From a virus, in IMG/VR virus record IMGVR_UViG_3300049846_001536, positions 1 through 32,649 of that record: 32,649 nt of DNA, one strand, 5' to 3'. The notes below the pieces were generated by a model. The model was given only the letters and a program-made list of their open reading frames with translations. It searched no databases and was not told the origin of the DNA. Below, piece after piece: positions 5,624-32,575 of this stretch. How positions within the stretch are numbered: position 1 is the stretch's first letter; every line of letters starts with the position of its first letter. The position numbers and the translations under genes are program-made.

Positions 5624-5644
5624 AAAAGCCCCTTAATTGGGGCT
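5622..5644. terminator. Bidirectional terminator between tape measure and HTH gene
   Basis: A six-base stem AGCCCC (5627-5632) / GGGGCT (5639-5644) with loop TTAATT. An A run (5622-5627) precedes it, giving a U-tract for the minus-strand gene, and T-rich sequence follows on the plus strand. It sits between convergent genes ending at 5623 and 5649. Confidence 0.75.
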
Positions 5645-5648
5645 ATAA

Positions 5649-5951
5649 TTATTTTCTTTTTCTAAGGTAACTTAAAAGTTCTAAAGTTGAAAAAAATAAT
5701 CTTTTTCCGTTTTTCATTGCTGGAATCTCTTTTCTTGAAACTTTAGAATAAACTGTAGGAACTGTAAGTTTTAAAAGATCGGCTGCTTCTGAAATTGTTA
5801 AAAGTTTATCTTCTTCAGGTTTTTCATTTAGTTTAGTTAATATTTTTTCAATGTCATTTATTATTTTTTCGGATACCTTTTCGGATACCTTTTCAGCAAT
5901 CATGTCAGCGAGCTTATTAGGATCAATAGGGCTTAATACTAAATTGTACAT
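5649..5951 (-). CDS. HTH_17/excisionase-type DNA-binding protein
   Basis: A 100-residue protein on the opposite strand to the tail genes around it. Residues about 49-99 form a MerR/excisionase-like winged helix: LLTISEAADLLKLTVPTVYSK, then a basic wing (KNGKRLFF) and a final helix. Such proteins act as excisionases or small transcription regulators. Residues 20-42 contain a heptad-like EKVSEKVSEK stretch encoded by a 12-base direct repeat (5866-5877 and 5878-5889), probably an oligomerisation helix. It has a -7-like element at 5991-5998 and a terminator at its end, so it looks like an independent insertion. With no integrase nearby, a regulator is as likely as an excisionase. Confidence 0.75.
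   Translation of the reverse strand: MYNLVLSPIDPNKLADMIAEKVSEKVSEKIINDIEKILTKLNEKPEEDKLLTISEAADLLKLTVPTVYSKVSRKEIPAMKNGKRLFFSTLELLSYLRKRK
5866..5889. repeat. Two-copy 12-base in-frame tandem repeat
   Basis: TTTTCGGATACC occurs twice in tandem (5866-5877 and 5878-5889) inside the HTH gene and encodes the repeated EKVS helix unit. The unit is a multiple of three, so copy changes would lengthen the predicted coiled coil without shifting frame. Confidence 0.8.
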
Positions 5952-8610: not shown

Positions 8611-11085
8611 ATGCCCTACGCTTACGGTAATATACAACTTGACCATGTCGACGTAAATAACACTACTATTCAGGCAATAGATAGTTTCACAGCTGCGACT
8701 ATTCCGGTACTGTCCGACGTTTTTGCAATCGGTAACAGGATAAAACTAACCCTTACGATTGACGCATCAGGACCTGACAGCTTTACAAATAAACTGCTTA
8801 GGTTTAATCCTGCCTTGTTTACGAATCAGGCCGACTTAAATGCGTGGCAGTTCGGATATGAGTCTAACGGCGTATTAACAACTACTCCGACTCTGTGCGT
8901 TTTAAATGCTGCCTCAGCGACACAGCAGAACTACGAATGTTATATGTCTATAAATTTAGCAGCGACTGAGGCAACGATAGATTTCTATTTTTATGTGACG
9001 ATGGACCTGCAAAAGTTTATCAATAATCTGTCAGTTCCGAATATAAACCGCCTTATTTCTGCCGCAACTTCAGGCGTATTTACAAACGGCAGCACAAACA
9101 CAGCATACAGAGTACAGCGTAATTTATCATGCGCTGCTTACGTTTTCGATTATGTCGCATTTGGTCAGCACGTGTTAGAACCTATAGGATCATCACGATT
9201 TTTAAATATTCCCGTCCGTGCAAGGTGGTTTAATTCGGACTATGCAGGGGCAACAACAGGAATGCGGTATATTTCCGAAATCGAAATTACTTCAGCTTCT
9301 CAGCTTGCCGCAGGTCTTCCGACATTGACCGACGTCACGGCAACAGGCGCACAGACTACAGCAGGTACAGACGTTCGGAGTATTTTCACGGTTACAAATA
9401 ATCAGCTCGCAGTCGGTGAAATGAATTCTGTTAGGGTTCTGCTTTCTGGCGACGCTTACACAGGTTCAGTCGGTAATGACCCTGTTTTTAAGGTTCGGGC
9501 GTTACTGCTCAGAGTTGATGCCGTGACACAGCTAAACGATTTTGTTACAGAATATGACTTATCTGATGCCTTAGTAAATCAGGGCGCAGTCATTCCCGCT
9601 CAGCTTGATAACGCTATTTATGCCCCGTCTGATTGGTTTGAAGATGTGCCGAATCCTGACGACGTAGAAGTGCAATTCATGATTGACGGCACAAAAATAC
9701 AGCTGAACGGCAGTTATTACCTAATTATAAATATTTACGATTCGATAAATCCTGAATACGTAACAACGCACATCAGCCCTGAATTGACCGCCTCATATGT
9801 TGCGCCTGTTCTGCCAACGATTACGGGCTATTTGAGTACGTACAACAAAGAATACAGCGGAAACGAGCTGACAGTTGCCCCGCACCAACGCATAAAGGCA
9901 AGTATAGAAGTAGATAAGGCAAGTTATGAGGCTGCACTGCTCGCCTTAGGCATTACGGCCGACTTTGATGACTGCCTATTTGGGGTTATCTGCAAACTGA
10001 CGGATGTGCCGGGCGCAGTTAATCAAGTTCAGGGCTATATTCCGAATACACTCACACCGCCTAATTCTAATCAGGTTTTAACAGCGGATATGTCGCTAAT
10101 CACCAACGATGCAACGACGTTAAGACTTGAGGCAATATTCAGAATATCTGAAGAATATGCAGGCAGCACGACGGATATTGTTTGGACTTTGTCATTCAAT
10201 CAGCCTGTAACTGTAGGCGGATCTACTCAGTTCAATCAGATAACATTTACTCAAGTTTTGAATGTATCAGATTTTGAGAACGACGCTGTAGCACCTAAAC
10301 TGCTTGCGGTCCGTTTCTATGATCTTGATTTATACTTAGCAGGAACTAAGCAGGAAATTATAGATATTTGTGACGCTGATCAGATTATTGCCGAAGTAGA
10401 AAAAGATCCTGCCTTTACAGGTTCGATTAACTTAGTCGCTACGATTTACCCTGCTAACGAATCAGGCGAAACAAACCCCGCAGCGATTGAAGAAGAAGAA
10501 GACTGGATGCCGACCGTTATACAGATGTCACAGGCCGTAAGCGGAAAGTTGGATAATGTAGATATTTCGTTCGGTGGTGATGATTACGCAGTATTCCGCA
10601 TAAACTGTCAGCAGTTAACGCAGGGGCAGCGGTATTGGGTTACTGCTATAGCATTTGAGCAGTTCCCTGATTATTGTCCGCTCGGATTAGTGCAGAATAT
10701 TGTAATTACATCCGTCCGTCCTTCTGCTGCGCCGTTTTGGGCGGTCGGTGCTGCGTGTGCTAATTTTGTCAATGAAATAATCGCGCATCCTGATTATGTT
10801 TCCGGCGTTACGGTTGTTTATAATCGTGTTGTTGATATTAACGGTAATGTAGTCGGTACGAATCTGTACAGCACAAACGTTATTCCGAATGATACTTTAG
10901 CCTGTTCAGCAATTGCCCCGCAAGCTACAGTATACTACGAAATGCGAATTGATGCCGTATTCGATTCAGGTTCAGGCAATCATTTAATTTCGCATACCTT
11001 ACGAGTTCCGATAACTTTACAGGCTATAAATACGCCGCCGATAAGTTGGGGTTCTAACGCATACGAATGCACGGATTTAGGATAA
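8611..11085 (+). CDS. Large beta-rich tail/baseplate protein
   Basis: An 824-residue protein beginning MPYAYGNIQLDHVD. Alternating hydrophobic/polar residues, many Thr/Ser/Asn/Gly, and repeated domain-like blocks suggest a chain of beta-sandwich domains, as in tail-tip or receptor-binding proteins. An acidic patch, EEEEDW, lies near residue 630. No enzymatic motif, signal peptide or collagen repeat is visible. It starts 1 base after the 6918 gene and ends at a strong terminator (11090-11113), so it closes the tail-tip transcription segment before the inserted minus-strand genes. The function is inferred from size, composition and position only. Confidence 0.6.
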   Translation: MPYAYGNIQLDHVDVNNTTIQAIDSFTAATIPVLSDVFAIGNRIKLTLTIDASGPDSFTNKLLRFNPALFTNQADLNAWQFGYESNGVLTTTPTLCVLNAASATQQNYECYMSINLAATEATIDFYFYVTMDLQKFINNLSVPNINRLISAATSGVFTNGSTNTAYRVQRNLSCAAYVFDYVAFGQHVLEPIGSSRFLNIPVRARWFNSDYAGATTGMRYISEIEITSASQLAAGLPTLTDVTATGAQTTAGTDVRSIFTVTNNQLAVGEMNSVRVLLSGDAYTGSVGNDPVFKVRALLLRVDAVTQLNDFVTEYDLSDALVNQGAVIPAQLDNAIYAPSDWFEDVPNPDDVEVQFMIDGTKIQLNGSYYLIINIYDSINPEYVTTHISPELTASYVAPVLPTITGYLSTYNKEYSGNELTVAPHQRIKASIEVDKASYEAALLALGITADFDDCLFGVICKLTDVPGAVNQVQGYIPNTLTPPNSNQVLTADMSLITNDATTLRLEAIFRISEEYAGSTTDIVWTLSFNQPVTVGGSTQFNQITFTQVLNVSDFENDAVAPKLLAVRFYDLDLYLAGTKQEIIDICDADQIIAEVEKDPAFTGSINLVATIYPANESGETNPAAIEEEEDWMPTVIQMSQAVSGKLDNVDISFGGDDYAVFRINCQQLTQGQRYWVTAIAFEQFPDYCPLGLVQNIVITSVRPSAAPFWAVGAACANFVNEIIAHPDYVSGVTVVYNRVVDINGNVVGTNLYSTNVIPNDTLACSAIAPQATVYYEMRIDAVFDSGSGNHLISHTLRVPITLQAINTPPISWGSNAYECTDLG

Positions 11086-11119
11086 AAAAAAGCCCTCGAT
11101 TATTCGGGGGCTTCGTTTT
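11083..11119. terminator. Bidirectional terminator at the edge of the minus-strand insertion
   Basis: A ten-base stem with one G-U pair: AAGCCCTCGA (11090-11099), loop TTAT, TCGGGGGCTT (11104-11113). It is followed by CGTTTTTT on the plus strand and preceded by eight A (11083-11090), which give a U-tract for the minus-strand genes ending at 11120. Confidence 0.85.
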
Positions 11120-11515
11120 TTATGCGCTGTACGTATCGGTTATGTCGGTCCAATTATGGTGCACTTCCCATTTATTTGAACATTCGCCTTTTTTGTGATA
11201 AGGCCCTTGTATTAATATAGCTGAAAAAAAATATTGCGACATTTGATACCCTGTTGTTTTTACAATCTCTTTACCACATTTCAATATCCTCCCCTCAACA
11301 CTAAAATCAATCGGCTTTGGTTTGGTGATTATGATTTCATTTTCGTCAAGTATCCAATATTCTCTACTATAAGAAATTCCATCTAATTCAACTTTAATAG
11401 GTTGTTCACCTATATTTTCAATTTTTAAAACTTTGCATTTTACGAATATATAATCTCCTTCGTTGATTAAATTATTTGATGCTGCTTTTTTTGCTGTTGT
11501 TTTAATGCGTTTCAT
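11120..11515 (-). CDS. Hypothetical protein, last gene of inserted cassette
   Basis: A 131-residue protein with a basic N-terminus (MKRIKTTAKKAA) followed by a beta-rich body (EGDYIFVKCKVLKIENIG and beyond). There is no signal peptide, no membrane segment and no motif that I recognise. Cysteines are scattered (K-CGK, GECSN). It is the last gene of a four-gene minus-strand operon and ends at the bidirectional terminator. It is separated from the preceding gene (11527) by 11 bases. Accessory genes of this kind inserted in phage structural regions often affect host defence or superinfection; nothing in the sequence shows that here. Confidence 0.6.
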   Translation of the reverse strand: MKRIKTTAKKAASNNLINEGDYIFVKCKVLKIENIGEQPIKVELDGISYSREYWILDENEIIITKPKPIDFSVEGRILKCGKEIVKTTGYQMSQYFFSAILIQGPYHKKGECSNKWEVHHNWTDITDTYSA

Positions 11516-11526
11516 AATCGTATTTT

Positions 11527-11826
11527 TTAAAATGGTAATTCAATCGGATTATTAAGTCTGTATAGTATTTTATAAGTAAGCTCGTCGGATGTCATTCTTT
11601 GTTCTTCGCGTCCGTTCCAACTTAGCAACTTCGGGGCGATTTGTTCGATCTCGGTTTTTACACCGTCGGAATAAACGTCTAAAATATGCCATTCGCCGTC
11701 AGTTTCAAGTTCGCCGCGATAATATTCAGGTTCGTAGAATTTAGCGATTGCCTCAATTTTAATTTCGCGTTCGTAATCGTCGAAAAGTTCGAAGTAAATT
11801 ACAGCTCTGTGGATTGTGTTTGTCAT
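11527..11826 (-). CDS. Hypothetical protein of inserted cassette
   Basis: A 99-residue acidic protein (MTNTIHRAVIYFELFDDYER...). It has a pattern of beta strands rich in Tyr, Phe and Glu (AKFYEPEYYRGELETDGEW) and looks like a small alpha/beta fold. Its ATG overlaps the stop of the upstream gene by 4 bases (ATGA, 11823-11826), implying coupled translation. The C-terminus is a hydrophobic tail (NPIELPF). No family recognised. Its weak resemblance to small conserved proteins of Bacteroidota mobile elements is only an impression. Confidence 0.6.
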   Translation of the reverse strand: MTNTIHRAVIYFELFDDYEREIKIEAIAKFYEPEYYRGELETDGEWHILDVYSDGVKTEIEQIAPKLLSWNGREEQRMTSDELTYKILYRLNNPIELPF

Positions 11827-12017
11827 AGTGCCTCAGAAAGTTTAATGATGTAATTATTGCATTCGTCCCAAGTTTTGAAAGTTCGGCCCGATACAGGCTT
11901 ATTGTTTTCAAAAACTGTTAAGTAGAATCGGCCTTTAAGGTAGCCGATGTGGATAATCTTTTTCCAACCTTGCAGAAAGTGTGTGCGCTGATTTACGCCG
12001 AATTTTTTAAAAAACAT
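11823..12017 (-). CDS. Small basic hypothetical protein of inserted cassette
   Basis: I choose the ATG at 12017, giving 64 residues (MFFKKFGVNQRTHF...), because the 13 residues before it from an ATG at 12056 (MIIILTLKTYLII) come from A/T-rich sequence and look like read-through rather than a natural N-terminus. The longer form would add a hydrophobic leader, so a membrane-anchored version cannot be excluded. The body is basic with a GRFYLTVFENNKPVSGRTF strand pair, then a helix (EC NNYIIKLSEAL). It overlaps the next gene by ATGA. Function unknown. Confidence 0.5.
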   Translation of the reverse strand: MFFKKFGVNQRTHFLQGWKKIIHIGYLKGRFYLTVFENNKPVSGRTFKTWDECNNYIIKLSEAL

Positions 12018-12079
12018 AATTATCAAATAAGTTTTTAAAGTAAGGATAATGATCAAAATATGCAGGCTCTATAAATGCT

Positions 12080-12097
12080 ATCAGGACCGAACCTGAT
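12080..12097. other. Hairpin in cassette intergenic region
   Basis: Perfect six-base inverted repeat ATCAGG (12080-12085) / CCTGAT (12092-12097) with loop ACCGAA. It lies between the first and second genes of the minus-strand cassette. No U-tract follows on either strand, so an mRNA processing or stability element, or a protein-binding site, fits better than a terminator. Confidence 0.4.
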
Positions 12098-12119
12098 CGA
12101 ATTTCTATGCGGGTAGCGG

Positions 12120-12356
12120 TTAGGGTGTAGTGCATAAAAAGCCGGGCGTTTTTTTAAGTTTTTTGATGTAGTAGTCTTTGTTCTGCTCAAAGGCATAGAC
12201 CGCACTGCCGAAAGAATCAAAGCCCGTTTCAAGTGTGCAGTTCATAAAGCCTTGATTTGATACGGCAATGATTTTGATAGACGGAACATAAACACCTGAA
12301 TAGATAATTTCAAAGTCAATTCCGCAGTAGTTGAATGTTTTGTGTACGTTTCTCAT
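12120..12356 (-). CDS. First gene of inserted cassette, hypothetical
   Basis: A 78-residue protein (MRNVHKTFNYCGIDFEIIYS...) that is the first gene behind the best promoter in the window (12379-12409 minus). It appears to be a small beta-alpha fold: two strands (FEIIYSGVYV, SIKIIAVS), a turn, then a helix (SAVYAFEQNKDYYIKKLKK). Three cysteines are present. There is no membrane segment or signal peptide. Being promoter-proximal, it should be the most highly expressed cassette gene. I do not recognise the family and infer no function. Confidence 0.6.
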   Translation of the reverse strand: MRNVHKTFNYCGIDFEIIYSGVYVPSIKIIAVSNQGFMNCTLETGFDSFGSAVYAFEQNKDYYIKKLKKTPGFLCTTP

Positions 12357-12378
12357 ATGTTTTCGTTTTTTGTTGTAT

Positions 12379-12409
12379 CAAAGGTAATACTTAATTTCAT
12401 ATCTGCAAA
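12379..12409 (-). promoter_or_regulatory. Bacteroidota promoter (-33/-7) of minus-strand cassette
   Basis: On the minus strand: TTTG (12409-12406), a spacer of exactly 19 bases, then TACCTTTG (12386-12379). This matches the Bacteroidota TTTG-N19-TAnnTTTG arrangement. It is 22 bases upstream of the ATG at 12356 and lies in an A/T-rich divergent intergenic region. Confidence 0.7.
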
Positions 12410-12462: not shown

Positions 12463-12471
12463 TACTTTTGC
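12463..12471 (+). promoter_or_regulatory. Candidate -7 element directly at the start of the 12475 gene
   Basis: TACTTTTGC fits TAnnTTTG and ends only 3 bases before the ATG at 12475. A transcript started at the usual distance would begin at or next to the start codon, so it may be leaderless. No -33 TTTG is present; only a T run lies at that distance. Confidence 0.45.
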
Positions 12472-12474
12472 ACT

Positions 12475-13416
12475 ATGCTAATTCAATATCCTGTAATATA
12501 TACGCCTGAAAACTCGCTTACGTACGCATTTCGGCAGCCTGTACCGATTCGGTATGCCTGTCCGATTCTGCCGCCGGGCTTTTTATCAGATGAAACGGAC
12601 GGCTGGAACTGTAATTTATGCGGTTCTGCCTCTGCGTTTTATGCGCCGTATGTTGCTGGGGATATTATTCCGTTCCAAACTCAGTTTGCAGATAATTACA
12701 ATGTACCTACAGATGTAATTACGGCAGGTTTTCAGACTTCTGTTTCGGCTACGCATTACGTTAAAGTAGAATTACAGGACTGCTGCGGGGTGACGGTATC
12801 GGAATATATTGACGATTTTTGCGAAGTGTATTGGGTCGGTTATTCCGTAGAAACGGGCAGCATTCAGACGTGGTTTGTGAATACGGGCCTTTTTCCTACA
12901 GGCTTAGAATGTTTCAGGCTGAAAATAACTTATTACAGAGATTCTGGCGCGCCTGTGGTTGAACGTACACTGTACACAGAATATTATAAAGAGGTCGCGA
13001 ACTGTGGCGGTATCGGTACTGCCTTAATTGAATCTACTTATCCGAATTATGACTGCAACGGCAATTATTACGGGCAGTTGACTAATACTTTAGGCTTAGG
13101 CAATGCAGCGTTTTACAATTCAATGCGGATTGAAGGCGAAGTAGAGTTTTTCGGGGAATCGGAATCGGTCACAGAGAATGATAGAAATGTAGTTATTAAG
13201 AAAGATATAACAGAAAACTACGGCATTATTTCGGGCGTTGTGCCGCCTTATTTCATCAAACGTTTAGCGCAGACTGTGAGAGGGAACGCGGTAACGGTTG
13301 ACGGCATACAGTATCAGAATTTCAGTTATGATTCTAAGCCTGAGACGTCGAAAATGTTTCTGTTAGACTTGACTTTTAATAAAAAGTGTTCGATTGATAA
13401 TCGGACTTGTGGATAG
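12475..13416 (+). CDS. Cysteine-rich structural (tail) protein, unknown
   Basis: A 313-residue protein beginning MLIQYPVIYTPENSL. It is beta-rich and has cysteine motifs (NCNLCG near residue 43-48, DCCG near 102-105, DCNGN near 188). It resembles a two-part beta-sandwich structural protein of a type common beside tail tube genes in Bacteroidota phages, but I cannot name the family. The ATG at 12475 is the only plausible early start. It begins just after a -7-like element and is followed 42 bases later by the tail tube gene, so it restarts plus-strand transcription after the inserted cassette. Tail-tip, fibre or tube accessory roles are all possible. Confidence 0.6.
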   Translation: MLIQYPVIYTPENSLTYAFRQPVPIRYACPILPPGFLSDETDGWNCNLCGSASAFYAPYVAGDIIPFQTQFADNYNVPTDVITAGFQTSVSATHYVKVELQDCCGVTVSEYIDDFCEVYWVGYSVETGSIQTWFVNTGLFPTGLECFRLKITYYRDSGAPVVERTLYTEYYKEVANCGGIGTALIESTYPNYDCNGNYYGQLTNTLGLGNAAFYNSMRIEGEVEFFGESESVTENDRNVVIKKDITENYGIISGVVPPYFIKRLAQTVRGNAVTVDGIQYQNFSYDSKPETSKMFLLDLTFNKKCSIDNRTCG

Positions 13417-13458: not shown

Positions 13459-14340
13459 ATGAGAGATAATTTTGTATTTATTCAGGCTTTTGTCGGTGTA
13501 TTCGGGATTTGCCCGCCTTGCACGGATGATGAGAACGTGCCTAATTACCTTTGCGATCCGTGCGATTCGACTGTTTACGGCGGCGGTATTGCAGGTTGGT
13601 ACGCTAAAAAATGTAGCTACGAGTTCGTAGATATTACCGATGACGCAGAATGGGTTACGGCAATTGAAAACAAAGACGTTTTCGGTCGTGTGAACGGTAG
13701 CCGTATTTCCGGCGGTTTGACTGCTCCTGAATTCACGACTAAAAAACGTGGCAGCTGCGGACAGGAAGAAGTAGTCAAACAATCTCGCGTTGTGTCTCTG
13801 ACCGATGCCGAAAACGATGCTACTTTTTCAATTGATGCACTGTACAATTTCCTTGCCGTTCCTGCTAATGCTGCGGGCTACGAATTCGGATTTGTTACTT
13901 GTGACGGTCGTTTTTTGGGATGGTTCTCTAACGTAGCAGTTAGAACATTTTTCCAAATTGCCGAAACTAACGAAGATGATTCATATTGGACAATTGAGTT
14001 CCGTTACGATGAGCAAATCGGATCATTCAGTCAGCAGCAGCTTTCATTCCTACTTACTCAAGCTTACAACGTTTGTTGGGTAACTTCAATTGTTGTAACA
14101 GGTACAGGCGGCGCGGTTACAGTTGCCAACGGTGCGACTCTGCAAATGATCGCTACTGTTCTTCCGACTAATGCCACAGATTCTTCTGTAACGTGGTCAG
14201 TCGTTGCGGGCAGCGGTACAGCTACTATCAACGGTACAGGTCTTCTGACAGGTACAGGCGCGGGAACTGTTACAGTCGTAGCAACTGCGAACGATAATTC
14301 AGGCATAACAGGGTCGCTTCAGATTACTGTAACGCCTTAG
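13459..14340 (+). CDS. Major tail (tube) protein with C-terminal BIG2 domain
   Basis: A 293-residue protein. The first about 205 residues resemble a tail tube subunit: a cysteine-rich N-terminus (CPPC 18-21, CDPC 32-35), a KRGSCG loop at 96-101, then a mixed alpha/beta core with FSIDALYNFLAVPANAAGYE and a strand-rich end. Residues about 208-292 form an Ig-like BIG2 (group 2 bacterial Ig) domain, with the typical LQMIATVLPTNATDSSVTWS, then INGTGLLTGTGAGTVTVVAT. In siphophages such domains decorate the outer surface of the tube and may bind host glycans weakly. It lies directly upstream of the portal, not of the chaperone, which is unusual. Confidence 0.75.
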   Translation: MRDNFVFIQAFVGVFGICPPCTDDENVPNYLCDPCDSTVYGGGIAGWYAKKCSYEFVDITDDAEWVTAIENKDVFGRVNGSRISGGLTAPEFTTKKRGSCGQEEVVKQSRVVSLTDAENDATFSIDALYNFLAVPANAAGYEFGFVTCDGRFLGWFSNVAVRTFFQIAETNEDDSYWTIEFRYDEQIGSFSQQQLSFLLTQAYNVCWVTSIVVTGTGGAVTVANGATLQMIATVLPTNATDSSVTWSVVAGSGTATINGTGLLTGTGAGTVTVVATANDNSGITGSLQITVTP

Positions 14341-14434: not shown

Positions 14435-16228
14435 ATGAACGTTCAGGATTTTTTCAATTTTCTTGCAGAGCTAAATACTACCGTACTTAACCCGCCACAG
14501 CATCCGTATAAGGCTGAATGGAAAAGGATATACGAGTCTATTAAGCCGCACTTTTACGGACAGGTCCCGCCTGCACTTGAAAAAGCATTCCCGAATGAGG
14601 AAGCTAAGATTCTGAACTACAGAAAAGAAACCTATCAGCCTAAGACCGAGTCACCGTTAGTTAAGGCAATAACTGAGCTACATCGTTTATTATCGAACGC
14701 TAAGCACTCAGTTAAGTTTGAGTCTGCACAGATGCAGGATTATATCAAAAATAAGAAGTTCGGAGATTCGGACCTGACAAAATTCTTTTTCTCTGTTTTT
14801 GTTCCGCACCGCGTATTAGACCCTAATGCAGTTCTGCTGATTCAGCCGACAGGCTTAGGCGTTGTAGATAATTCGCAGCGGGTCGATATTGATTTTAAAA
14901 TGATTCAGTCTGATAGGATAGTATTTAATGATCCTGAGTATCGGCTGTTAATATATAAGGGCGTAAGTAAAAATAAATATGCCGTATTAGGTATTGAAAA
15001 TCCTGTTTATTATCACATTGTTACCGATGAGTTCTATGCAGAAGTAAATTCTAACGGCGGTGATTATGAATTTACGGTATTATATGAGCATAAGTCGGGT
15101 ATTATGCCGTGGGTTACGCTCGGCGGTCGCAGTATTCCGATTTATGACCGTTACGGCAATACTTTTACCGTTTATAAATCAGACTTCAGTCCGGCAATTC
15201 CTTATTTGAATGATGCCGCAATTTTTGACAATCAGCACAAATCTGTAATGTTATCGGCCTGCTTCCCGATTAAGTTCGTCGAAGGAGTTGACTGTAATCA
15301 GTGCCACGGCGTTGGAAAAGTTCACGATCACGAGCATGACGAAGGTGTCGAGTGCCGTTCGTGTGGCGGTACGGGTAAAACTTTGAGCATTTCACCGCTT
15401 GCAGCCTATAACCTTAACCCTACGACTAAGAACTTCGGCGAAAATACGCAGCCTGTAGATCCGATCCGTTATTTCAGTCCTGACATTTCTTCTATTCAGG
15501 AAACGCGCACGGTATCGGATGCGGCACTGTTAAAAGCTGAGCAGGTTTTGAATATAAACCGATCTTTAAACTCTGCGCAGTCGGGCGTAGCTAAGGAACT
15601 TGACCGAGAGCCTGAATATATCGAAATCGGTAAAATTAGCGATGATGTTTATGCACGTTTTGCTGATGTGCTGAATATCATTCAGGCCCTTGTTTTTATG
15701 GATACGACGTCCGAAATTACGGTAAACGCCCCGATTTCGTTTGACTTGAAGTCTGAGACCGAACTAATGCAGGAATTTGCAGAGTCTCAGAAAGGCCTTC
15801 CGACTGCTATTCGTTTTGAGGCATACATTTCGTATGTTGACCGCCGATACAATTCCGATCAGGTAGCCCGCAGAATCGCGGCAATCTGCGCAATGTATAA
15901 CAGTACTTATCTGTATACGGTTGACGAACGGAATACACTTTTAGCAGGCGGGCAGATTACTACAAATGATTGTATCGCTGCTCAGTTTGTTTTTGACGCT
16001 GTAACAACTCTATATTATGAAAAGAACTTTGATATTATGTCTGATAATTGGGATGCTATCAGGGCAGCCATTGACGCAGAACTTGCACCAAGATTTGACG
16101 CTGCTATGAGCGTAACACCGCCTGAGGTTGACATGAATCAGTTTAATAACGCAGACGATAACGCAGACGATAACGCAGACGATAACACAGACGATAATTC
16201 AGATGATAATTCAGACCCGAACGCATAA
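14435..16228 (+). CDS. Portal protein with CxxCxGxG insert
   Basis: A 597-residue portal: it would form the dodecameric ring at the capsid vertex that binds terminase and the neck. Evidence is size, position before the Mu F-like gene, and a body of mixed strands and long helices (SDAALLKAEQVLNINRS, residues 361-377, fits the helical region of portals). Between residues 287 and 315 are two DnaJ-like motifs, CNQCHGVGK and CRSCGGTGK, separated by a His/Asp/Glu-rich loop (HDHEHDEG); they should bind one or more zinc ions. The C-terminus (572-595) is a tandem NADD/NTDD/NSDD acidic tail. The stop overlaps the next ATG (TAATG). Confidence 0.85.
   Translation: MNVQDFFNFLAELNTTVLNPPQHPYKAEWKRIYESIKPHFYGQVPPALEKAFPNEEAKILNYRKETYQPKTESPLVKAITELHRLLSNAKHSVKFESAQMQDYIKNKKFGDSDLTKFFFSVFVPHRVLDPNAVLLIQPTGLGVVDNSQRVDIDFKMIQSDRIVFNDPEYRLLIYKGVSKNKYAVLGIENPVYYHIVTDEFYAEVNSNGGDYEFTVLYEHKSGIMPWVTLGGRSIPIYDRYGNTFTVYKSDFSPAIPYLNDAAIFDNQHKSVMLSACFPIKFVEGVDCNQCHGVGKVHDHEHDEGVECRSCGGTGKTLSISPLAAYNLNPTTKNFGENTQPVDPIRYFSPDISSIQETRTVSDAALLKAEQVLNINRSLNSAQSGVAKELDREPEYIEIGKISDDVYARFADVLNIIQALVFMDTTSEITVNAPISFDLKSETELMQEFAESQKGLPTAIRFEAYISYVDRRYNSDQVARRIAAICAMYNSTYLYTVDERNTLLAGGQITTNDCIAAQFVFDAVTTLYYEKNFDIMSDNWDAIRAAIDAELAPRFDAAMSVTPPEVDMNQFNNADDNADDNADDNTDDNSDDNSDPNA
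15293..15379 (+). other. Zinc-finger-like coding segment in the portal gene
   Basis: Encodes CxxCHGVGK (residues 287-295) and CxxCGGTGK (307-315), the pair of CxxCxGxG repeats typical of DnaJ-type zinc centres. DnaJ normally carries four such repeats; here there are two, enough for one four-cysteine site. Confidence 0.7.
16148..16219 (+). repeat. 12-base tandem repeat at the portal C-terminus
   Basis: Six in-frame 12-base units. The first three are AACGCAGACGAT, followed by increasingly diverged units (AACACAGACGAT, AATTCAGATGAT, AATTCAGACCCG). They encode the acidic NADD/NTDD/NSDD tail. Identity is highest at the 5' units, as expected from recent expansion by slippage. Confidence 0.85.
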
Positions 16229-28785: not shown

Positions 28786-28814
28786 CCGCTGCTCGTAAGG
28801 GTAGCGGTTTTTTT
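28786..28814 (+). terminator. Rho-independent terminator after the holin
   Basis: Nine-base stem with two G-U pairs, CCGCTGCTC (28786-28794) / GGGTAGCGG (28799-28807), a GTAA tetraloop, and seven T (28808-28814). It overlaps the final codon of the convergent minus-strand gene (stop at 28813-28815). Confidence 0.85.
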
Positions 28815-29214
28815 ATCCGAATACACGTTTTAAGGTTAACAAATTATAAGTTTCAAAGTCGGTTACAGCGGAAGCTTGATATATTTTATGCCTGTTGAAA
28901 TATTCCTCAGCATCGTAATAAGTAGATTTTCCGCCGTCGATTATCTGAATTTCGGATCTTGACCAAAATCCGCATACGCAGTGCGTTTTACTGAGCAAAA
29001 ACAGTGGTATTCTATTTTCGGTAAACGGTATAACCTTAATCAAATTTGCGTTTCTGAGCTTTTCGGCATGATTTACGTAAATCGGCCATAGTGTAAATTC
29101 AGGCGGTAACATTCGCTGTATATCGCCTAATGCGTAACCTGACGGACGGGCTTTAAATTCCGTCAGGTCAAGCTCAGGAAATAATACGTTTACCGCTTCT
29201 GGAACGCACCTCAT
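28813..29214 (-). CDS. Possible papain/C39-like cysteine protein next to endolysin
   Basis: A 133-residue protein, last in the minus-strand operon, overlapping the GH19 gene by ATGA. It has a layout recalling small papain-like (C39-type) folds: Cys3 in RCVPEAVNVLF at the N-terminal helix, GYALGDIQRMLPPEF, then KTHCVCGFW with His78, and IQIIDGG with Asp93 as possible Cys-His-Asp residues. The N-terminal cysteine is very close to the start, and no signal peptide is present. If active it could cleave peptide bonds in peptidoglycan or a host protein. The match is by eye only, so function is uncertain. Confidence 0.4.
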   Translation of the reverse strand: MRCVPEAVNVLFPELDLTEFKARPSGYALGDIQRMLPPEFTLWPIYVNHAEKLRNANLIKVIPFTENRIPLFLLSKTHCVCGFWSRSEIQIIDGGKSTYYDAEEYFNRHKIYQASAVTDFETYNLLTLKRVFG

Positions 29215-29810
29215 ACTCCGAATTCCTCCAAATATTTAAGGCCCTTATTTCGTTTTCGTGGTATGCCTTCAACGTGAACAGGATTTTTTGAAGCGTCATA
29301 AAAAGCAAACGATTTGCCTACGCCTGCATTTTGTCTGTATGCTTCCTGAAATGCAGGCTCAAATTCTGTAAATGCCTTAACAGCTTTGAAATAGCAGGCT
29401 AATGCTTTTGCCGCAAATTCAGGCTGTTCTAAAAGTTCGGGCTGATTTACGAAGTCAATTCCGGTACATTTTGCAGCAGAAATATAATTTGCTTTAAATG
29501 TAATGCCGTTAAAACCTCTGCCGACATACTTCCATCCTTCTGTAGGGCTATTTCCGTAAATGCCTCCGTACACAGCATTGAAAAACGCCTCATCTGACTT
29601 TTTAAGTTCGTTTAACTGTGCGTCAGTATGATTTGACAGCCGACCGAAAATAGCACGGATGCGGGCATTATTTGTGTTTCGATAACTTGCCTCTTTTAGG
29701 TTTTTGAATGCTGTTTCACCTCCGACAACTCCCATCACTGCGGCTGCTGCTTGTGGTGTAAACCCTTCAGCAATTAGGGTTTCTTTTACGATTTTTTCAT
29801 TCTGATTCAT
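29211..29810 (-). CDS. GH19-type endolysin (lysozyme/chitinase-like)
   Basis: A 199-residue enzyme that would hydrolyse the sugar backbone of peptidoglycan. The GH19 signature is visible: MGVVGGETAFKNLKEASYRN with the likely catalytic acids E32 and E40, and GWKYVGRGFNGITFKANY (92-109), the substrate-cleft core. No signal peptide, so it needs the holin at 28305. The end (residues 165-199) is basic. It overlaps its neighbours on both sides by ATGA. The family usually has 180-200 residues, matching this length. Confidence 0.85.
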   Translation of the reverse strand: MNQNEKIVKETLIAEGFTPQAAAAVMGVVGGETAFKNLKEASYRNTNNARIRAIFGRLSNHTDAQLNELKKSDEAFFNAVYGGIYGNSPTEGWKYVGRGFNGITFKANYISAAKCTGIDFVNQPELLEQPEFAAKALACYFKAVKAFTEFEPAFQEAYRQNAGVGKSFAFYDASKNPVHVEGIPRKRNKGLKYLEEFGV

Positions 29811-30211
29811 ACATATTTAAGTTTTACGAGTTGATCATTAAGCCGTTCGGACTTGTTAGATTTTGCCATTCTGACAAGCTTATTACGGCTGATTCCAAAA
29901 TGCTCTAAGGCTGCTTTTACGTGTGTGAATTTCATTGTACTGCCGTCAGAAAATTTAGCAAGTATTGTTTTACCTTTTCGTTTGTAGTTTCGGTTTACGT
30001 ATTTTTCAACAGATTCGGAAGTCACTAAACGCTCGGTTTTGATATCCAAAGGTACGAAATTATTCTTAACCTTGCAGTATATTTTCGGGTTTTCGACTTC
30101 TTTTAAATCGCCGGCCTTAATCATCTGATTGATTCTTACTTGAGCGTAATTAGGTGTGTCGATATGTTCGGGCGAAATTCGCTCTAATGCCTGTCTGAAT
30201 GTTAGATACAT
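29807..30211 (-). CDS. Hypothetical basic protein with HTH-like end
   Basis: A 134-residue, lysine-rich protein ([19 protein letters not shown]...). The N-terminal 40 residues look like a small helical motif ([10 protein letters not shown] and [19 protein letters not shown]), and residues 95-115 ([20 protein letters not shown]) look like a helix-turn-helix. It may bind nucleic acid, perhaps as an intron- or homing-type or regulatory protein. It overlaps the thyA gene by 10 bases (30202-30211) and the endolysin by ATGA. Family not recognised. Confidence 0.55.
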
Positions 30212-30987
30212 ACTTCTGCTTTTATGTGAGGGTGAGGATAATAATTTAATAAGGCAAAGTCTTCGTACTTGAAATCGAAAATGTCTTTAATTTCAGGATT
30301 CAGCAGCATTTTAGGCAAATACTTAGGTTCGCGGGTTAGCTGCAAACTCGCCTGTTCGATGTGATTATTGTAAAGGTGCGCATCACCTAACGTATGCACA
30401 AATTCACCTGCCTGTAGTCCTGTAACCTGTGCTATCATCATTGTCAGAAGTGCGTATGAGGCAATATTAAACGGTACGCCTAAGAATACATCTGCTGAGC
30501 GTTGGTACATTTGGCAGGACAGTTTTCCGTTAGCGACATAGAATTGAAAAAAAGCGTGACAAGGCGGCAGAGCCATTTCAGGCAGTTGAGACGGATTCCA
30601 AGCCGAAACGATTAGGCGGCGGCTGTCAGGATTTGTTTTTATCTGCTCAATTACGTTTTTAATTTGATCTATGCCTTCGCTATTCCAATTCCGCCACTGA
30701 TGCCCGTAAACAGGTCCTAAATTCCCGTAAGCGTCGGCCCATTCGTTCCAAATTGTTACTTTGTTATCGGTCAAGTATTTTGTATTTGTTTCGCCTGATA
30801 AAAACCAAAGCAGTTCATGAATAACCGATTTGATATGAATTTTTTTTGTAGTAATCAGGGGAAATCCGTCGGATAGGTCAAATCGCATCTGATAACCGAA
30901 AATAGATTTTGTTCCCGTTCCGGTCCTGTCCGTTTTTTCTATGCCTGATGTAAGTATTGTTCTTAGTAGGTTGTGGTATTGTTTCAT
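30202..30987 (-). CDS. thyA: Thymidylate synthase
   Basis: A 261-residue ThyA (EC 2.1.1.45): dUMP plus methylene-tetrahydrofolate gives dTMP and dihydrofolate. It is close to the 264 residues of the E. coli enzyme. Visible signatures: R21 (TDRTGTG), [20 protein letters not shown] (near 40-59), WNEWAD (80-85), [11 protein letters not shown] (91-101), [12 protein letters not shown] (121-132), the nucleophile Cys143 in [12 protein letters not shown], and the conserved end [10 protein letters not shown]. All key residues appear intact. It boosts dTTP for phage DNA synthesis. It lies within the lysis operon, overlapping the upstream 48-residue gene by ATGA. Confidence 0.97.
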
Positions 30988-31130
30988 GCGCGGCGGCTAA
31001 GTTTTCTAAGGTGTAAAAATAATAAATTTCTGTCGTAGTTTTTCCAGCTTTTTTGGCGGTCGGCCTTTTCTTCCATGAAAGCCTGATACATCCAATAGTT
31101 TAGCTCGTGTAAGTAGTTTAGTGGCTGCAT
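30984..31130 (-). CDS. 48-residue small ORF between GH73 and thyA
   Basis: ATG at 31130 ([18 protein letters not shown]...), TGA at 30984-30986, overlapping the thyA ATG. The upstream gene's stop ends 1 base before this ATG. The product is helical, aromatic-rich at the N-terminus and basic at the end (RKLSRRA). The perfect fit into an otherwise empty gap makes translation likely. Role unknown; it may serve mainly for coupling to thyA. Confidence 0.6.
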
Positions 31131-31131
31131 A

Positions 31132-31668
31132 TCAATTAAAAAATTTTACATCATATTTCCACAACTGATACTTTTCGATAACAGCAATCAGACTTTCGGC
31201 ATATTTCGGAGCGGTTGCGTATCCTGCTTTTTTAAGGCCGTATGCCCATTTTTTATATTGCAGTCGGTTGAGTTTTGTCAGGTGTTTGTATCGGTCTGAC
31301 GTCAGTAATTTAGAATGCGCGCGGTAACTGTACCAAGCAGACTTAAAAACCTGAAAACGGTCGCGGGGCGAATCGTCACGGTAAACTGCATATTTGCCAG
31401 TTCCACGATATTTTATGCCGAAGTGATTGTTATGTCTTCGGCTGAGTTCAGACCTGCCCGCATTGCTCTCTAAAATGCCCTGAGCGAGCTTTATTGATAC
31501 AGGTATATTAAAACGGTCAGCCTCGTTTTTTGCGGTCGGCAGAAAGCGTTTTATGTACTTGGTGACGTGGGTAGGGATTTTTGCACCGTGGCGGGTATTT
31601 GCTGGAGTTGCGAGCGGACGGTATGCGCTTATAAATATTAGCGCGGTTAGGAGGATTAGGTATTTCAT
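31132..31668 (-). CDS. Secreted glucosaminidase (GH73-type)
   Basis: A 178-residue peptidoglycan hydrolase expected to cut between GlcNAc and MurNAc. The N-terminus is a signal peptide or membrane anchor (MKYLILLTALIFISA). The GH73 core follows: SIKLAQGILESNAGRS with catalytic E67, NNHFGIKYRG (80-89), and KKAGYATAPKYAESLI near the end. Because it is exported by the host, it does not need a holin, unlike the GH19 enzyme. It could act in lysis, in virion-associated wall opening or in spreading through biofilm. The family is well known; its precise role here is inferred. Confidence 0.85.
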   Translation of the reverse strand: MKYLILLTALIFISAYRPLATPANTRHGAKIPTHVTKYIKRFLPTAKNEADRFNIPVSIKLAQGILESNAGRSELSRRHNNHFGIKYRGTGKYAVYRDDSPRDRFQVFKSAWYSYRAHSKLLTSDRYKHLTKLNRLQYKKWAYGLKKAGYATAPKYAESLIAVIEKYQLWKYDVKFFN

Positions 31669-31689
31669 ATCTGTTTTTTTGTGCCTTGC

Positions 31690-31700
31690 GGCGGGTTAAT
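31690..31700 (-). repeat. Intergenic GGCGGGTTAAT motif, copy 1 of 3
   Basis: On the minus strand it reads ATTAACCCGCC, placed around the stop codon of the 98-residue MGMYDD gene. Copies 2 and 3 occur at 32006-32016 and 32589-32599, also at gene ends. It may be part of the duplicated unit or a short processing site. Confidence 0.6.
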
Positions 31701-31992
31701 CAATAGGTTCTATTTGTGTTATATGAATAAGTTTACCTTCCTTAAATAGTGCTATAAAGCAATACCAAATATCCATTATGTCTTGGTAAAATTCAATTTC
31801 GCCAGTTAAATTATCTTTTTCCTTTTTATTAGGATTAGCCCAAGTATCTGTTACATATAATTCACCACTTTCAGTTATTTCAAGCAAATTTAAATAACAT
31901 TCATGTGATTTTGTTTGCCATCCTTTTTGGTATTTTTTTATTTCTTCAGGCAGGTGTTTGCTGTGAACAATCAAATCGTCATACATTCCCAT
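31696..31992 (-). CDS. MGMYDD-family hypothetical protein (full-length copy)
   Basis: A 98-residue protein starting MGMYDDLIVHSKHLP. The MGM[FY]D start and the following GWQTKSHECYLNLLEITESG (24-43) resemble a widespread family of unknown function with an FQTK-L-D-x-L-x-x-Y-x-I-x-x-G-L pattern found in phages and bacteria. An acidic middle (residues 54-72) and a hydrophobic strand pair (YCFIALFKEGKLIHI) complete it. Its first 18 codons and upstream region lie within a 126-base direct repeat also present at 32524-32649. The family's role is not known to me. Confidence 0.65.
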   Translation of the reverse strand: MGMYDDLIVHSKHLPEEIKKYQKGWQTKSHECYLNLLEITESGELYVTDTWANPNKKEKDNLTGEIEFYQDIMDIWYCFIALFKEGKLIHITQIEPID

Positions 31993-32066
31993 AATTTAAA
32001 ATTTCGGCGGGTTAATGATTCTTATCTTCTCTGTCCTTAATTCGTACCGGAAACAAATCCATGATC
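31941..32066. repeat. 126-base direct repeat, copy 1
   Basis: Matches 32524-32649 with the same length and four base differences that I can count. It spans the 5' end of the 98-residue MGMYDD gene, the intergenic spacer and the 3' half of the 39-residue membrane protein gene. Confidence 0.9.
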
Positions 32067-32131
32067 GAGTGAATAAGCATTCCGAGTACGAATACGAATA
32101 AGGCGATTATTAGGAGGTGGGATAGTGTCAT
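32012..32131 (-). CDS. 39-residue membrane protein
   Basis: ATG at 32131 (MTLSHLLIIALFVFVLGMLI...), TAA at 32012-32014. One transmembrane helix (residues 4-22) is followed by a charged tail (VRIKDREDKNH). Its start overlaps the regulator's stop by ATGA (32128-32131). The last part of the gene is repeated at 32595-32649, so a second copy existed upstream. Size and topology would suit a toxin-like or holin-like peptide, or a small membrane anchor, but nothing decides between these. Confidence 0.6.
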   Translation of the reverse strand: MTLSHLLIIALFVFVLGMLIHSIMDLFPVRIKDREDKNH

Positions 32132-32394
32132 AGTTTATGTGTGGTTGAAACGTTATGAATAGTTATGTCCAAAAATTCAAAAGGGAAATCAAGATAAATC
32201 ATGCATTCTTTTAAAATGTTATCAGGAAGTTCTGAAACCCCTTTTAAGAATTTAGATAGTTTCGGCTGTGTCAATCCTTTTACATTTTTTGCAAGTTCTG
32301 TCTGTGATACATTCCTGTAACCCATTGCAAATTCAAGTTGTCTTGCTCTGTTTACTTGCCTCTTTCGTAACAGGTGAATTTCAATGCTCATCAT
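32128..32394 (-). CDS. XRE-type HTH regulator
   Basis: An 88-residue protein. Residues about 28-52 make a helix-turn-helix (NVSQTELAKNVKGLTQPKLS), followed by FLKGVSELPDNILKECMIYLDFPFEFL, a pattern seen in XRE/HigA-type regulators, many of which partner with a toxin or protease. The two methionines at the start leave 32394 or 32391 as the start. It overlaps the 32381 ORF upstream and the membrane protein downstream. It is the only repressor-like gene in the minus operon and could control this operon or an adjacent switch. No peptidase domain is attached. Confidence 0.75.
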   Translation of the reverse strand: MMSIEIHLLRKRQVNRARQLEFAMGYRNVSQTELAKNVKGLTQPKLSKFLKGVSELPDNILKECMIYLDFPFEFLDITIHNVSTTHKL

Positions 32395-32575
32395 AACTCA
32401 CTATACAATTTATACATTTTCTGAATTTCTGTTTAGATTTTAGATGATCCGTCGCCGTTGCTGTCGCCTTCGCCGTAGCCGTCGCCGTCGCCGTCGCCGT
32501 AGCCGTCGCCGTCGCCGTAGCCGTTTCTTTAGGCAGGTGTTTGCTGTGAACAATTAAATCGTCATACATTCCCAT
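32381..32575 (-). CDS. Chimeric ORF: MGMYDD start plus Thr-Ala repeat
   Basis: A 64-residue ORF. The first 15 residues (MGMYDDLIVHSKHLP) are identical to those of the 98-residue gene at 31992. They are followed by KE, a (Thr-Ala) repeat encoded by hexanucleotides (32451-32522), then a short basic end (DHLKSKQKFRKCINCIVSYDEH). The conserved family body is missing, so it looks like a broken copy whose 3' part was replaced by repeat expansion, although it may still be translated. It overlaps the regulator start by 14 bases, so translation could feed into that gene. Confidence 0.45.
   Translation of the reverse strand: MGMYDDLIVHSKHLPKETATATATATATATATATAKATATATDHLKSKQKFRKCINCIVSYDEH
32451..32522. 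repeat. Hexanucleotide tandem repeat (GTCGCC/GTAGCC)
   Basis: Twelve six-base units, mostly GTCGCC with GTAGCC at intervals and a few point variants (GTTGCT, TTCGCC). On the minus strand they code for alternating Thr and Ala. Local G+C is far above the surroundings. Unit number changes keep the frame. Confidence 0.9.

Follow-up and report, generated by a model that had tools for sequence, protein, structure and literature searches.

A probable accessory-gene cassette with a promoter-leader header shared between antisense insertion points in the late block of an uncultured phage

Introduction

Accessory genes of phages are usually recognised through guilt of position. Cassettes built on promoter early stem-loop (PeSL) elements in T4-like phages are reportedly the subject of work by Arbiol (2010) and Comeau (2014). 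A further study describes PeSL elements that mediate shuffling in these phages (PMC4503421). A moron, by comparison, is a unit of promoter, gene(s) and terminator that separates two genes which are neighbours in related phages (PMC4378225). The same term is also applied to insertions in the lytic phage SPP1, in whose late region a moron segment of ORFs 8-10 interrupts the packaging/portal module (PMC6316719).

Here we analyse a block of small minus-strand genes in the complete IMG/VR record IMGVR_UViG_3300049846_001536 (32,649 bases, hereafter the window), which had been proposed from its sequence to be a moron-like cassette of four genes inside the tail genes (hereafter the original prediction).

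Results

The window encodes large terminase, portal, structural, exonuclease, holin, endolysin and thymidylate synthase genes. Neither the 7.6-kb region surrounding the block (as DNA) nor the portal (as protein) had a match in cultured phages, and many relatives were found in IMG/VR, both by the portal and by gene 12475. One of these, G003, is a circle-closing record with a 127-base end repeat. The order of the late genes is conserved in relatives, running through genes 3065, 6215, 6471, 6918, 8611 and 12475 to an Ig-domain gene, the portal and onward. Alignment of the portal to bacterial genomes yielded no contig that carries it, and thus identified no host or prophage. A search of 14 long records of the group, among which one is circular and most are possibly fragments, gave no match to tyrosine (PF00589) or serine (PF00239) integrases, and a moron in the lysogenic sense is accordingly not supported. 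The phage is probably virulent.

Two further features of the window were observed. Residues ~282-314 of the portal (14435-16228) contain a double CxxCxGxG motif, similar to a DnaJ zinc finger and conserved across relatives, and in PHROGs these residues match an antitermination Q-like family. A second minus-strand block (28813-32575) contains thymidylate synthase and two endolysin-like genes, and its gene 31132-31668 has relatives among the site-2 cargo (see below) of L073 and G003.

The block under study lies between late genes 8611 and 12475 (Table 1). All four predicted minus-strand genes are present as ORFs A, B, C and E with coding-like codon usage (z 2.4-4.0), the overlapping alternative frames in the cassette reaching z values of only -1.0 to 1.4. 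A fifth ORF, gene D, was absent from the original gene list, and given its weak codon-usage score we do not accept it as a certain gene. The GC content is 0.358 in the cassette versus 0.438 and 0.428 in the flanks. The location claimed for the block holds as regards the late/virion block and only in part as regards the tail, since the direct flanking genes 8611 and 12475 match no family in profile searches; gene 13459-14340, next after the right flank, matches Ig-domain/major-tail-protein families and is followed by the portal. "Inside the late/virion block" is the safer wording.

Table 1. Coordinates of the cassette and of its flanking features in the window.
Feature	Coordinates	Strand	Length, evidence or remark
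Left flanking late gene	8611..11085	+	824 aa; conserved in relatives
Bidirectional intrinsic terminator, left end of cassette	11084..11121	both	folding and T-runs
Cassette gene A	11120..11515	-	131 aa; codon usage z 2.4
Cassette gene B	11527..11826	-	99 aa; codon usage z 3.5
Cassette gene C	11823..12017	-	64 aa; codon usage z 3.5
Possible fifth gene D	12007..12135	-	42 aa; overlaps C and E; codon usage z 2.1, weak
Cassette gene E, first after promoter	12120..12356	-	78 aa; codon usage z 4.0
Cassette header (promoter and conserved leader ATACAACAAAAAACGAAAAC)	12359..12409	-	matrix score, comparison
-7-like box TACTTTTG before right flanking late gene	12463..12470	+	similar box at same place in most empty sites
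Right flanking late gene	12475..13416	+	313 aa; 47-74% identity in relatives

The original prediction named a comparison for empty sites in related phages as a check. Among uncultured relatives, the interval between genes 8611 and 12475 (site 1) is empty in 51 of 54 distinct flank pairs, which have 9-61 nt in its place and, in most cases, a -7-like box before gene 12475. Site 1 is also empty in the distant relatives L080, L134, L135 and L138. Three fills are complete, namely those of the window (1389 nt), L002/L076 (1505 nt) and L011/L072 (902 nt), while in L003/L074 and L136 a header (see below) is present at site 1 and the insert runs off the contig. In these fills, every convincing gene is encoded on the minus strand, and the genes largely differ from one fill to another; a 50-aa plus-strand ORF in L072, which overlaps the terminator region, was not counted as a gene. 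None of the relatives compared carries the window's cassette genes at site 1, so these genes are not a constant companion of the tail module. It should be noted that few independent events are represented, because the set includes few filled sites, three of them complete and two at contig edges, and the empty ones fall largely into one clade of 42 tree rows.

Site 2, between genes 17585 and 18639, holds an insert in 7 of 48 distinct cases. The inserted genes are always on the minus strand, and their products include GIY-YIG/T5orf172, ParB-like, synthetase-like, endolysin-like and SPOR-like proteins. At site 4, between TerL and gene 2249, antisense cargo with the same header was found in G009, G030, G038 and G048. 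Cargo families recur at different sites, as each of three genes occurs at two of them: a 63-aa gene is common to L076 (site 1) and L073 (site 2; E 1e-33), the site-2 block of G003 encodes a relative of the window's gene B (36-37% identity, E 4.8e-12), and a SPOR-like gene is found at both site 2 and site 4.

Several individual insertions deserve mention. A ParB-like/GmrSD_N-like protein is the single reverse cargo at site 2 in two relatives (L055:14068-14868 and L077:4567-5385), and a relative of it adjoins gene 17585 in G001. Another reverse cargo gene, L082:4672-5553 (293 aa), matches the class II tRNA synthetase core (D, K and N) and, strongly, phrog_29758. At site 3, between genes 3065 and 6215, the window alone among the relatives compared has an HTH_17/excisionase-like gene (5649-5951, minus strand; GC 0.277), which is accompanied by a short bidirectional hairpin with T-runs (5627-5644) and lacks the cassette header.

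The bidirectional terminator predicted at one end of the cassette proved strong on both strands, as it folds far better than shuffled sequences (z -5.0 and -4.6) and has T-runs in both directions. It is missing from the short empty sites of relatives. A left-end hairpin was present in all ten complete filled inserts examined, always at the end opposite to the promoter and with a sequence that differs between them.

The predicted TTTG-N19 promoter form was recovered at its expected place on the minus strand (12379-12409), with TTTG at -33 (12406-12409), a 19-nt spacer and TACCTTTG at -7 (12379-12386). Five occurrences of this motif were found in the window where 2.7 are expected by chance, and we rejected it as significant on its own; because the motif alone is not rare, its significance comes from comparison. 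TTTG-N18-19-TANNTTTG lies 22-52 nt before the first ORF in nine of 11 filled cassettes, the window included, as against a mean of 0.05 and a maximum of 1 in a shuffle control of this placement; the cassette of L059 is without the header form, and the -7 box of the L072 cassette contains a single mismatch. In the orientation of the cassette, the promoter is present at none of 92 empty sites.

Conservation between sites also extends into the sequence after the promoter, and we refer to the promoter and this leader of ~20 nt together as the header. A first matrix, trained only on headers of sites 2 and 4, scored window positions 12359-12409 at 34.5 bits, the next best of 65,196 positions reaching 10.8, and the window header still ranked first when the -33/-7 bases were masked. 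The matrix used to scan all fetched records included site-1 headers in its training set, and the first matrix is therefore the independent test. This second scan detected 16 headers above 28 bits, spread over several sites. Each of them is antisense to the late genes, and at each site the distance to the right-hand late gene is nearly fixed, with 53-65 nt before gene 12475, 164-195 nt before gene 18639 and 73-74 nt before gene 2249. The promoters of the helicase/methylase and 230-aa genes share the -33/-7 form and have poor leader scores, and for this reason the leader looks specific to the cassettes.

The primary sigma factor of Bacteroidota has the consensus TAnnTTTG at -7 with TTTG near -33 (PMC7366714; PMC9723704), and since the promoter form fits it, a Bacteroidota host is suggested for the phage. 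In G003, the same -33/-7 form precedes SNF2-helicase/methylase and ERF/YqaJ genes. A separate observation in this relative concerns the 834-aa gene L094:12436-14940, which joins a SNF2/helicase part to an N6/N4 DNA methylase part, has its own promoter (TTTG-N19-TAATTTTG) and is a candidate anti-restriction gene.

The claim that the cassette proteins match no known family held for Pfam, PHROGs, NCBIfam and PADLOC and failed in one respect, the relative of gene B in G003. The best PADLOC hit of genes A-E, none being significant, was that of gene B to PtuB (E 0.018, 12.6 bits, over a 31-residue stretch). Scans of IMG/VR revealed no relatives of genes A, B and E, and the gene B pair as query retrieved nothing beyond G003; genes A, C and E had no matches in a set of 50 related records that lacks a positive control. 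Against cultured phages, genes B, C and E had no protein match and gene A only a non-significant one (E 0.9). Homology of gene B to a 101-aa gene of L072/L002 of similar size and place was rejected (BLASTP E 0.43). The structural model of gene B, made with two sequences, is confident (pLDDT 88.6) and mixes strands and helices, and it had no convincing match among PDB and viral structures, the best being BamC at a VIA-align Z of 4.3, below signal. The model of gene A folded alone (pLDDT 33) was unusable.

Discussion

We consider it highly probable that the block is an acquired accessory-gene cassette that occupies one of several insertion points recurring along the late block. Most relatives are empty at this site, others have different genes there and the header recurs at other insertion points, which together point to a reusable slot for swappable genes. 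The self-contained, acquired cargo of the original prediction is thus borne out by the empty sites, the different cargo at the same site, the cassette's own promoter and terminator and its lower GC content. Because a relative was found for gene B alone, the mobility of genes A, C, D and E is judged from it and from the other cassettes.

We propose that the reverse-facing header at the right edge acts as a host sigma-A-type promoter with a conserved leader and would recruit the host polymerase. The resulting transcript would read the four or five small genes leftwards, and the left terminator would stop both this transcript and any late transcript running in from gene 8611. Uncoupled from late transcription in this way, the cargo would most likely be expressed early by the host polymerase, as also seems to hold for the minus-strand helicase/methylase genes. 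SNF2-helicase/methylase and ERF/YqaJ recombination genes are of early type, and because the same promoter form precedes such genes in G003, early expression of the cassette is our best guess; by promoter type and analogy, it is probably early. The headers and cargo families that different sites have in common would fit exchange by recombination at the header, between terminators, or both. On balance, we lean towards a PeSL-like system in which a promoter-leader header of ~50 nt marks antisense slots, into which unrelated small genes are plugged and between which they are moved.

A different history, in which the block is ancestral in the lineage, was lost by a large clade and owes its differences in cargo to fast divergence and gene loss, finds some support in the tree of gene 12475. 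There, the filled rows lie near the base of a large empty clade, and two changes fit one gain plus one loss; the tree is compatible with loss by that clade as well as with separate gains by the filled rows. We nevertheless consider this history improbable, as the more distant relatives are empty too, the cargo sets of site 1 are mostly unrelated, and cargo families and headers recur elsewhere. The position of the block within the virion genes might also suggest accessory virion or assembly proteins (decoration or tail accessory proteins) that are encoded in reverse by chance. This is very unlikely given the reverse strand, the host-type promoter of the block's own and the ParB-like, GIY-YIG/T5orf172, synthetase-like and endolysin-like cargo elsewhere, which are not virion proteins; profile searches of the window's cassette genes also matched no structural family. 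The least probable reading is that of a selfish mobile element. It draws on the GIY-YIG/T5orf172 proteins among the site-2 cargo, which match homing-endonuclease families, but the window cassette itself has no match to endonuclease, transposase or recombinase families in profile searches.

Assuming an acquired cassette, the role of its proteins is a more tentative matter. Small, fast-changing, early-type phage proteins often act in host takeover or counter-defence, and for this reason our preferred guess, held with less than even confidence, is that the cassette proteins do so as well. Many morons protect the infected cell against other phages, and small proteins with an independent promoter would suit superinfection exclusion or defence, directed at competing phages and not at host defences. 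We regard such a guarding role as rather unlikely, since no PADLOC match is significant and, with no sign of lysogeny, the long-term benefit of protection would be limited.

If the proposed slots are real, the header marks both their position and their direction, so that in phages with Bacteroidota-type promoters the header, not homology, could be used to collect unknown cargo, giving a sequence handle on unknown host-takeover or counter-defence genes. The idea, known from T4-like phages, of regulatory elements as gene-shuffling joints is thereby suggested in an unrelated group, where it is testable with close strains.

The closest known kinds are the promoter/stem-loop (PeSL) cassettes of T4 and the classical morons. 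As in morons, a promoter, genes and a terminator, here recognised by sequence, are inserted between genes adjacent in relatives and differ from them in base composition; the cassette may thus be called a moron in the broad sense, no integrase having been found in the records tested. Unlike classical morons, it is multi-gene and antisense, its headers are conserved between sites and it has no temperate sign. It shares with PeSL cassettes (PMC4503421) the association of conserved promoter and stem-loop elements with small variable genes in a virulent phage, and a conserved promoter element is indeed repeated before variable genes (16 headers above 28 bits). No conserved stem-loop, however, forms one composite motif with the promoter. 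Because the hairpins differ and lie at the opposite end, we do not file the cassette as PeSL but propose that it works like one. It also differs from them in phage group and promoter type, in its antisense placement at a few fixed points of the late block, and in having the promoter at one end and the terminator at the other.

More distant parallels exist for single aspects. The SPP1 segment likewise consists of small genes bracketed by transcription signals in a lytic siphovirus, but it also carries the origin oriR, and a header shared by multiple sites is not described in the available portion of PMC6316719. The SAS/ESAS of cluster K mycobacteriophages resemble the header as short conserved sequences before many unrelated phage genes; SAS are proposed translation signals (PMC3203893), whereas the cassette header spans the promoter and leader of insertions. 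The antiviral hotspots of P2 and P4 are, like site 1, fixed variable positions with different accessory genes in related phages, and they belong to E. coli phages and satellites and hold recognised antiviral genes (PMC9122126), in contrast to the cassette, in which no defence gene was recognised. A partial literature search found no published description of antisense slots with a header shared between sites. In this group of phages, such slots appear to be a distinct variant of the known systems, of which the shared header is the new part.
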